From NCBI RefSeq assembly GCF_013870525.1, contig NZ_JACBXD010000045.1, forward strand, positions 1 to 64,000: a stretch of 64,000 nucleotides of DNA, given 5' to 3'. This stretch comes from Amycolatopsis pittospori. Lineage in GTDB: Bacteria > Actinomycetota > Actinomycetes > Mycobacteriales > Pseudonocardiaceae. The notes under the pieces are model-generated. The model searched no databases. It was not told the DNA's origin and was given only the letters and a program-made list of their open reading frames with translations. Numbering within the stretch: position 1 is the stretch's first letter; each line of letters begins with the position of its first letter. Positions 56,241 through 58,069 of the stretch are shown here, piece by piece. The translations under genes and the position numbers were made by a program.

Positions 56241-56400
56241 GTCCACAGGTCTGCGGTGCAGGGAAGCCGGTGAGAATCCGGTGCGGTCCCGCCACTGTGA
56301 CCGGGGAGCGGCGCTCCATGAGTACGGCCACTGGCGAAAGCCGGGAAGGCCGGAGCCGTCGTCGATCCGGGAGCCAGGATACCGGCCGCAGGCGTGTCGT
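56241..56400 (+). promoter_or_regulatory. Cobalamin (adenosylcobalamin-type) riboswitch
   Basis: Conserved aptamer core: GGGAAGCCGGTGAGAATCCG (56261-56280), then CGGTCCCGCCACTGTGACCG, containing the B12 box GCCACTG at 56291-56297. The 3' conserved element GAGCCAGGATACCGGCC follows at 56371-56387. CTGCGG (56251-56256) and CCGCAG (56386-56391) can form the closing stem P1. Riboswitches of this class usually lower expression when cobalamin is present. The gene downstream on the same strand is mmsA, which is not a known cobalamin-regulon member. Confidence 0.93.
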
Positions 56401-56428
56401 GTTCGTCCACGAGGATGGAGCTGAACGC

Positions 56429-56485
56429 ATGCGGATTCTTGCTGCCTGCGCGAAAGACGCCGACCCGCCACAACCAACAGGTTAG
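56429..56485 (+). CDS. Possible 18-codon upstream ORF in the riboswitch leader
   Basis: ATG 56429 to TAG 56485, encoding MRILAACAKDADPPQPTG. GGAG at 56417-56420, eight bases before the ATG, lies just after the aptamer and a CGTG...CACG hairpin, so it could be the sequence that the riboswitch exposes or hides. uORF control has been described for mycobacterial cobalamin riboswitches. It may instead be chance. It ends 84 bases before mmsA. Confidence 0.4.
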   Translation: MRILAACAKDADPPQPTG

Positions 56486-56569
56486 CGGCGCGTCCGTACT
56501 CCCCTGCCCGGCCACCGATCGTGGTCCTCGGGCGGCTTCGTCCTGCGTACTTTCGCCGAAAGGGCATCC

Positions 56570-58069
56570 ATGAGCACCGAACTCAGTCACTTCGTCGGCG
56601 GCAAGCCGGTATCGGGTACTTCCGGTCGCTTCGCCGACGTCTTCGACCCCAGCACCGGCGCCGTCCAGGCCCGCGTTCCGCTGGCGTCGGCCGCCGAGGT
56701 CGCCACGGTGGTCACCGACGCGGCACAGGCCCAGCTCGAATGGGCTCGCTGGAACCCGCAGCGCCGCGCCCGCGTGCTGATGAAGTTCGTCGACCTCGTC
56801 CGCGCCGAGGAGGATTCCCTCGCCCGGCTGCTGGCCTCCGAACACGGCAAGACCGTCCCCGACGCGCGCGGCGACATCCAGCGCGGCCTCGAAGTGGTCG
56901 AGTTCGCCATCGGCATCCCGCATCTGCTCAAGGGCGAGTACAGCGACAGCGCGGGCACCGGGATCGACGTCTATTCGATGCGGCAGCCGCTCGGCGTGGT
57001 CGCCGGCATCACCCCGTTCAACTTCCCCGCGATGATCCCGCTGTGGAAGGCCGCTCCGGCGATCGCCTGCGGCAACTCCTTCGTGCTCAAGCCGTCCGAG
57101 CGCGACCCGTCGGTCCCGCTGCGGCTGGCCGAGCTCTTCCTCGAAGCCGGTCTGCCGCCGGGCGTGTTCAACGTGGTCAACGGGGACAAGGAAGCCGTCG
57201 ACGCGCTGCTGACCGATCCTCGTGTCGAGGCCGTCGGCTTCGTGGGCTCGTCGTCGATCGCGGAGTACATCTACACGACCGCCGCCGCGCACGGGAAGCG
57301 CGCGCAGTGTTTCGGTGGCGCCAAGAATCACATGATCGTGATGCCGGACGCCGACCTCGACCAGGTCGTCGACGCCCTGATCGGTGCGGGCTACGGCTCG
57401 GCGGGCGAACGCTGCATGGCGATCTCCGTCGCCGTCCCGGTCGGCGAGGCGACCGCCGACGCGCTGGCCGCCCGGCTGACCGAACGCGTCAAGACACTCA
57501 AGGTCGGAGCGTCCCTCGACGAGACGGCCGACTTCGGCCCGCTGGTCACCGCCGAAGCCGTCCAGCGCGTTCGCGACTACATCGACATCGGCATCGCGGA
57601 AGGCGCGGAGCTTCTCGTCGACGGTCGCGGGACCATTGTGGACGGTCACGAGAACGGGTTCTTCCTCGGCGGCTGCCTCTTCGACCGCGTCACCACCGAC
57701 ATGCGCGTCTACCGCGAGGAGATCTTCGGCCCGGTGCTGTCGATCGTGCGGGCCGCCGACTACGAGGAAGCGCTGCGCCTGCCCAGCGAACACGAGTACG
57801 GCAACGGCGTCGCGATCTTCACCCGCGACGGCGACACCGCCCGCGACTTCACCTCGCGCGTGAACACCGGGATGGTCGGCGTCAACGTGCCCATCCCGGT
57901 CCCGATCGCCTACCACACCTTCGGCGGTTGGAAGCGTTCCGGCTTCGGCGACCTCAACCAGCACGGCCCGGACTCCGTCCGGTTCTACACCAAGACCAAG
58001 ACCGTCACCTCGCGCTGGCCTTCGGGTACCAAAGAAGGCGCCAGCTTCGTCATCCCGACGATGAACTGA
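56570..58069 (+). CDS. mmsA: Methylmalonate-semialdehyde dehydrogenase (CoA-acylating)
   Basis: 499 residues, aldehyde dehydrogenase superfamily. Catalytic Cys282 in GSAGERCMAISVAV, cofactor region ITPFNFPAMIPLW (148-160) and the class-specific C-terminal FYTKTKTVTSRWP are present. It converts methylmalonate semialdehyde to propionyl-CoA, the last valine-degradation step. First gene of a tight operon. AAAGGG before the ATG could pair with ACTTTCG just upstream (56550-56562), which may influence initiation. The riboswitch and uORF precede it. Confidence 0.95.
   Translation: MSTELSHFVGGKPVSGTSGRFADVFDPSTGAVQARVPLASAAEVATVVTDAAQAQLEWARWNPQRRARVLMKFVDLVRAEEDSLARLLASEHGKTVPDARGDIQRGLEVVEFAIGIPHLLKGEYSDSAGTGIDVYSMRQPLGVVAGITPFNFPAMIPLWKAAPAIACGNSFVLKPSERDPSVPLRLAELFLEAGLPPGVFNVVNGDKEAVDALLTDPRVEAVGFVGSSSIAEYIYTTAAAHGKRAQCFGGAKNHMIVMPDADLDQVVDALIGAGYGSAGERCMAISVAVPVGEATADALAARLTERVKTLKVGASLDETADFGPLVTAEAVQRVRDYIDIGIAEGAELLVDGRGTIVDGHENGFFLGGCLFDRVTTDMRVYREEIFGPVLSIVRAADYEEALRLPSEHEYGNGVAIFTRDGDTARDFTSRVNTGMVGVNVPIPVPIAYHTFGGWKRSGFGDLNQHGPDSVRFYTKTKTVTSRWPSGTKEGASFVIPTMN

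Follow-up and report, generated by a model that had tools for sequence, protein, structure and literature searches.

Known cobalamin riboswitches mostly act on genes for B12 synthesis and uptake and on B12-free isozymes. What would one do in front of a valine-degradation operon? The question is raised by a window of 64,000 nucleotides from Amycolatopsis pittospori (the whole stretch of DNA analysed here), in which the original prediction had placed a full cobalamin aptamer on the same strand upstream of mmsA, with an 18-codon open reading frame (ORF) between the two. Both elements are borne out, the ORF at 56429-56485 and the aptamer by a covariance-model search with the Rfam cobalamin family, whose match at 56237-56404 lies far above the gathering score. 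The features on which the argument draws are these:

51012-54521, minus strand: methylcitrate-cycle genes prpC, prpB and prpD (NCBIfam profiles)
54688-56133, plus strand: short-chain fatty acyl-CoA regulator of the RamB/PrpR type (PF09856, 236 bits)
56211-56240, plus strand: promoter-like sequence just 5' of the aptamer (motif scan)
56218-56233, plus strand: near-palindrome AGTCGGACTTCCTACT in the promoter region, candidate operator (sequence motif)
56237-56404, plus strand: cobalamin riboswitch aptamer, full RF00174 match (model positions 1-189)
56285-56293, plus strand: P5/L5 with loop UCCCG (RF00174 structure line)
56371-56387, plus strand: B12 box (RF00174 alignment)
56399-56428, plus strand: predicted expression-platform hairpin P13, with outer stem GUGUUC/GAACGC, inner stem UCCA/UGGA and loop CGAGGA
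56417-56420, plus strand: Shine-Dalgarno (SD) sequence GGAG of the leader ORF, mostly within P13 and invariant in the 17 rows of alignment A1
56429-56485, plus strand: leader ORF of 18 codons, MRILAACAKDADPPQPTG, its ATG having GGAG 8 nt upstream
56486-56569, plus strand: C-rich spacer before mmsA, possible Rho-loading region (base composition)
56570-58069, plus strand: mmsA, methylmalonate-semialdehyde dehydrogenase (MMSDH TIGR01722, 639.6 bits, cut-off 448.5)
58077-59216, plus strand: acyl-CoA dehydrogenase (ACAD), probably isobutyryl-CoA dehydrogenase (Pfam ACAD domains)
59213-60247, plus strand: 3-hydroxyisobutyryl-CoA hydrolase, HIBCH (NF004127, 435.9, cut-off 274)
60244-61131, plus strand: mmsB, 3-hydroxyisobutyrate dehydrogenase, HIBADH (TIGR01692, 365.5, cut-off 291.6)
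61125-61907, plus strand: enoyl-CoA hydratase, ECH (NF004517, 448.4, cut-off 396)

An aptamer in front of a catabolic operon

In the window, cmscan gives RF00174 a score of 96.2 bits (E 5.7e-24) against a gathering score of 31.5, which rules out a chance or weak aptamer. The alignment contains the B12 box, the conserved core and the CCC of L5, through which riboswitches of this class form their kissing contact. By a definition that is in part general knowledge, peripheral arms separate the core from the B12 box in the class I (adenosylcobalamin) layout, and such an arm is present in the window (GCCACUG...GGGAAGGC). The ligand would be a cobalamin, probably adenosylcobalamin. Aptamers at some other loci score lower with RF00174 (L020, 47.2; L148, 60.4; L159, 45.5 bits), the peripheral arm being absent or reshaped in L020 and L148, so that their ligand preference might differ. 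The P5/L5 sequence GGTCCCGCCACTG occurs in 53 of 53 switch loci, a count that follows a locus filter which itself demanded part of the motif and which two of 55 loci (L158 and L169) had failed. Treating L015 and L020 as repeats of L174 and L156 leaves 51 distinct loci of the 53.

The five genes downstream run in the order mmsA-ACAD-HIBCH-mmsB-ECH on one strand, 7 bases apart or overlapping. The identities first proposed for mmsA, HIBCH and mmsB hold above the profile cut-offs; that of isobutyryl-CoA dehydrogenase rests on context, since none of the 22 NCBIfam matches to the gene at 58077-59216 exceeds its cut-off. On the other side, prpD, prpB and prpC are divergent from the operon (prpC NF010636 and prpB TIGR02317 above cut-off, prpD NF042438 at 886 against 950) and would let propionyl-CoA be metabolised without B12. 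The RamB/PrpR-type regulator, whose score with the RamB equivalog is 647.5, under the cut-off of 700, is encoded between these genes and the switch; a regulator of this type lies upstream in 10 of 13 same-genus loci, within the flank examined.

The promoter-like sequence is the sole match of its kind in 56130-56640, with 9 of 12 positions in agreement (mean in shuffled sequence, 0.1). The near-palindrome within this region is likely the operator of a regulator. AGTNGGACNTCCNACT has a single exact occurrence in its own genome, and a looser form of the motif is shared by all 13 same-genus loci and, of the 38 other switch loci, by 33. It also occurs 105 nt before mmsA in L007, a locus with no cobalamin match.

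Conservation of the switch with mmsA

Is the arrangement peculiar to this genome? All 13 same-genus genomes with an mmsA orthologue, among 80 genus members searched, carry the switch before mmsA. A set of 60 relatives contains ten same-genus orthologues (at least 82% identity), each with a same-strand RF00174 match 157-309 nt upstream, and the 80-genome set adds three further same-genus loci with RF00174 scores of 87.0, 95.9 and 60.4 bits. The 13 same-genus loci and four Streptomyces loci were used to build a model, R1, of the B12 box, P13 and the ATG. With R1, 34 of 35 Streptomyces mmsA orthologues show a same-strand match 164-726 nt upstream, 33 of them strong. The weak case is G502, where the aptamer has decayed and RF00174 gives no match at the gathering score, and the lone exception is G513, with no R1 match before mmsA. 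The original prediction was thus right to link a cobalamin riboswitch to the valine-degradation operon, and the order of riboswitch and mmsA proves to be conserved in both genera.

The arrangement is not universal, as an mmsA orthologue was found in only 13 of the 80 same-genus and 35 of the 295 Streptomyces genomes at the cut-offs used. At an E value of 0.001, R1 matches in 52 of 295 Streptomyces genomes and in 20 of 394 genomes of the class, nine of these above 58 bits. Among 80 named mmsA loci, R1 matches in four, all Streptomyces (four of the five Streptomyces in that set); the remaining 76 have no R1 match above 16 bits. A motif scan of the same 80 loci places a switch on the mmsA strand in three, and an Rfam search of 11 other actinobacterial loci of the 80 (L083, S. 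blattellae, included) gives no cobalamin match on the mmsA strand.

Several loci depart from this layout. A second, opposite-pointing cobalamin riboswitch lies close upstream in L021 (Kribbella antibiotica, 5674-5886, minus strand, opposite to mmsA), L022 (5340-5560, minus) and L155 (1904-2120, plus). In L021 and one Streptomyces it precedes mmsA, in G416 the switch, which might mean that mmsA or its switch often has a divergent gene under B12 control beside it. In G539 a second copy of the switch (L206, contig C99, 5173-5247, minus) precedes mmsA-like stretches of only 45-48% identity. In G416, a genome 81% complete, a strong R1 match (L207, 4790-4863, minus) is followed, in place of mmsA, by a 50-codon ORF similar to the C-terminal part of 3-hydroxyisobutyryl-CoA hydrolase (40%, residues 288-339), an arrangement that may reflect a rearrangement. 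R1 also matches, less strongly, at two places that have the same CACGAGGA loop (L210 and L211, G055, contig C73) and lie directly 5' of proteins that by eye resemble exported substrate-binding proteins.

Within its own genome, mmsA is the odd target among the cobalamin switches. There are six RF00174 matches, five above the cut-off; with target names read from the ORFs, the other five stand at metE (C170), at two divergent positions beside repeat proteins (C186), at a cobN-like gene (C160) and, weakly, at a cbtA-like gene (C160). R1 matches none of these five. The metE switch (L002) belongs to the same Rfam family with a full-length match, and its target is a classical B12-independent isozyme; its platform differs, as the lack of an R1 match indicates. 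The two divergent matches on C186 (L003 and L005, 2282-2614) lie between two secreted-looking repeat proteins, which are possibly B12-binding.

The pairing had been taken to be new, and in part it is not. A 2022 study already reported an Rfam-predicted cobalamin riboswitch before Streptomyces griseus mmsA (SGR_RS05925), with the same valine-degradation genes downstream (PMC8914203). Its available text describes premature transcripts from the mmsA leader, whose share varies with growth phase, and reads them as cobalamin-dependent repression; added B12 is not mentioned there, nor are a leader ORF, a hairpin or wider conservation, and the S. griseus leader is compared here by description only. 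For Streptomyces lividans, the part of the account consulted tabulates two cobalamin riboswitches, at cbiM and cobD (PMC8079986). A literature search of mostly open-access papers found no description of a leader ORF or of direct-start variants at mmsA. The switch-mmsA pairing and SD-masking B12 switches with leader ORFs are thus already in print, and the leader ORF, the SD in a hairpin and the direct-start variants at mmsA are what is added here.

The leader ORF and its hairpin

Counted from a GTG within the aptamer, at 56270, the open frame of the leader would span 71 codons; the ATG at 56429 is preferred because GGAG stands eight bases before it. A short leader ORF with the regulated SD, separate from mmsA, is found at 46 of the 51 distinct loci. 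At three others the same SD and ATG begin mmsA itself: L147 and L148, from the same genus, and L159, from another family (RF00174 95.9, 60.4 and 45.5 bits, respectively). The remaining two have no mmsA in reach. These three direct-start genomes argue that this start is the regulated one. In L147 the N-terminus of MmsA reads MRINPACAQD, beside MRILPACAKV for the leader peptide, as if a deletion had joined the leader to the gene. In G504 the leader ATG has become ACG, and only a fragment resembling MmsA residues 310-362 (52.8%) follows.

The predicted hairpin that contains the SD after the aptamer is conserved, and resembles those of SD-masking OFF switches. UCCACGAGGAUGGAG is identical across all 17 rows of A1, an invariance that is partly by choice, as rows were picked with most of the P13 motif (none of the 17 lost it); in the wider set of loci the motif is one base off in L157 and carries an insertion in G502. 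All 17 unique variants can form the outer stem, with 5-7 pairs. Covariation is weak, because swapped strands pair nearly as well (mean -5.96 kcal/mol swapped against -6.41), and none of eight isolated P13 hairpins folds clearly better than shuffled sequence (z -1.03 to 1.24). When the full window leader is folded without ligand, the four bases of GGAG have unpaired probabilities of 0.11, 0.09, 0.05 and 0.72. Most of the SD is thus paired, and no open alternative state that frees it was found for the window leader; as ligand-free folding already masks the SD, the switching step is assumed. The UCCCG of L5 could meet the CGAGGA of L13 in a kissing contact. An RNAalifold consensus of A1 was discarded for conflicting with the Rfam aptamer, as it pairs the L5 stretch with P3, and a possible pairing of leader codons with aptamer P4, visible by eye in some sequences and absent in L125, was dropped.

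Does the leader peptide itself matter? Fitch counts on the mmsA tree place 30 changes at first, 31 at second and 56 at third codon positions of the MAPV-type leaders (31 taxa: 30 Streptomyces and L157, from another family), with a permutation p of 0.010-0.024 depending on codon range. The test was made without L015, L020, L022, L043, L155 and L186, and non-MAPV leaders were also kept out of the MAPV set. The pN/pS ratio of these leaders over the first 11 codons after the ATG is 0.52 in the leader frame, compared with 1.29 and 1.12 in the two other frames; over 17 codons the gap narrows (0.70, compared with 1.01 and 0.98). This suggests some amino-acid-level constraint on the Streptomyces leader peptide. 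The leaders of the window's own genus show no significant coding constraint (11 taxa; 11, 11 and 15 changes at positions 1, 2 and 3; p 0.22), and their pN/pS is 1.01 when 11 codons are counted and 0.58 with 17. Leader lengths range from 14 to 30 codons, with one of 174. The listed peptides contain no run of Val codons and the window's leader no terminator-like site, unlike a classical amino-acid attenuator.

At a G502 locus with no RF00174 match (L208, 2549-2649, minus strand), the motif of P13 and a leader ORF of the MALV type persist, as if they were kept for a use that does not involve B12 sensing. Such persistence is unexpected if the leader serves B12 alone.

Mechanism, sign and rival readings

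How could a switch at the leader ORF reach mmsA? The closest precedents are the SD-masking B12 OFF switches with leader ORFs of Mycobacterium tuberculosis, as far as the available text of that study describes them (PMC11260477). The ppe2 switch resembles the one proposed here in being a compact translational OFF switch that masks the SD of a short ORF (uPPE2), not that of the main gene, with L13 adjoining the SD. It differs in its target and in that uPPE2 overlaps the gene start (AUGA) and couples to it mainly by termination-reinitiation (PMC11260477). The window shows no such overlap, its leader stop lying 84 nt before mmsA, and termination-reinitiation is unlikely here given gaps of 77-223 nt over the loci measured (those of L022, L173, L175 and L177 are upper estimates, as GTG was taken as the mmsA start and an upstream ATG is likely). 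The metE switch of M. tuberculosis has the L5 CCC/L13 GG kissing contact that is proposed here, supported there by compensating mutations, along with SD masking and a likely Rho-assisted loss of mRNA; its aptamer and platform form two separate domains, unlike here, and its uORF suppresses the gene (PMC11260477).

Direct occlusion of mmsA is also unlikely, because 84 nt separate the gene from the leader stop and it is preceded by its own SD-like GAAAGG. Premature termination, set off when the leader is not translated, is the better fit. Rho is suggested by a C-rich spacer (C 0.43 and G 0.29 in its first 72 nt) and by the window's leader, in which no terminator-like site was found; folding of the spacer over 13 leaders gives no consistent signal (z +0.6 to -3.6).

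The reading we somewhat favour is a cobalamin OFF switch on the valine-degradation operon that acts through the short leader ORF. The aptamer, its conservation, the leader ORF, the SD and hairpin motif, the direct-start variants and the IcmF and MutB genes (below) come from sequence, and the ligand, the sign, the kissing loop, termination and the purpose are reasoned from there. Transcription would begin just 5' of the aptamer. Without B12, P13 could open, ribosomes would reach GGAG at 56417-56420 and translate the leader, and RNA polymerase would proceed into mmsA. With B12, L5 would kiss L13 and hold P13 shut, leaving the leader ORF untranslated, and the naked C-rich leader would suffer premature, probably Rho-dependent, termination before mmsA. 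The original suggestion that the switch may control an upstream ORF fits this scheme, in so far as the predicted SD-masking hairpin belongs to the leader ORF. A bolder form seems doubtful to us, in which the B12 switch gates a dedicated leader peptide, constrained at the amino-acid level in Streptomyces, whose translation or nascent chain licenses transcription of the distant valine operon; B12 would then determine whether a second sensor, based on the peptide, comes into play, and the two inputs would choose between the B12-dependent and B12-independent fates of isobutyryl-CoA.

Why would B12 turn valine degradation off? The sign had seemed puzzling enough to raise an ON switch, and it can be explained without one. 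The genome encodes a fused isobutyryl-CoA mutase, IcmF (NF045497, 1949.1 bits, cut-off 1500), and a MutB-type methylmalonyl-CoA mutase large subunit (1314.2, cut-off 876), the MutA small-subunit model falling just under its cut-off (602.6 against 617.25). With IcmF encoded and prpDBC nearby, an OFF sign can make sense, as the mmsA route and the neighbouring methylcitrate genes would form a B12-free alternative. The purpose would then be to close the B12-independent isobutyryl-CoA route (to propionyl-CoA and methylcitrate) once the B12-dependent isobutyryl-CoA mutase and methylmalonyl-CoA mutase can work. These two fates of isobutyryl-CoA give a logic that we infer. A comparison of PF01642 mutases in 13 switch-bearing genomes and 13 of the switch-less ones was not informative, as all 13 relatives that lack the switch carry the same hits, including one the size of IcmF. 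Isobutyryl-CoA mutase rises strongly with valine in Streptomyces albus, according to the portion of that report consulted (PMC8176718).

An ON switch, by which B12 would raise valine degradation because propionyl-CoA needs methylmalonyl-CoA mutase, has a simple supply logic and the mutase genes in its favour. It appears quite improbable given a B12-free outlet in the adjoining prpDBC, an SD in a hairpin adjoining the aptamer, as in the OFF switches described in the available text of PMC11260477, and an S. griseus profile that the accessible account interprets as repression (PMC8914203). Could the leader ORF be incidental to an OFF switch, B12 directly causing premature termination and the start in P13 being a by-product of an ancestral direct arrangement? 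The premature transcripts in the S. griseus account (PMC8914203, as available), the three loci with the switch directly at mmsA and the non-significant coding constraint in the window's genus agree with this. No row of A1 has nevertheless lost the SD or the ATG (the 17 rows were selected using part of the motif), MAPV-type leaders vary mostly at third codon positions, and the window's leader lacks a terminator-like site; this reading is unlikely, if a serious competitor.

Another possibility is that the leader peptide acts as a sensor, with ribosomes stalled by its nascent chain or codons (ADPP, HDPG) on a second signal and the B12 switch as a gate. The constraint on MAPV-type leaders and the retention of P13 and the leader in G502 despite its decayed aptamer speak for such a role, which we consider improbable in view of lengths of 14-30 codons (one 174) and of peptides that, between the two genera, have little in common beyond a DP pair. 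The switch might finally be a relic that once belonged to another gene and has lost its function. Decay at some loci (G502, G504) and G611, which has no match to the operon proteins in the stretch examined, would suit a relic, against which stand the full 96-bit aptamer, its tight linkage to mmsA in two genera and, in G504, a start codon loss that accompanies the loss of mmsA; we give this very little weight.

A whole catabolic route is apparently handled here as a B12-free alternative. B12 status would then bear on how valine is used and on how much propionyl-, methylmalonyl- and butyryl-CoA, polyketide building blocks in these bacteria, is available. Together, the leader ORF and the three natural variants that begin mmsA at this very start make a specific mechanism directly testable in Streptomyces.
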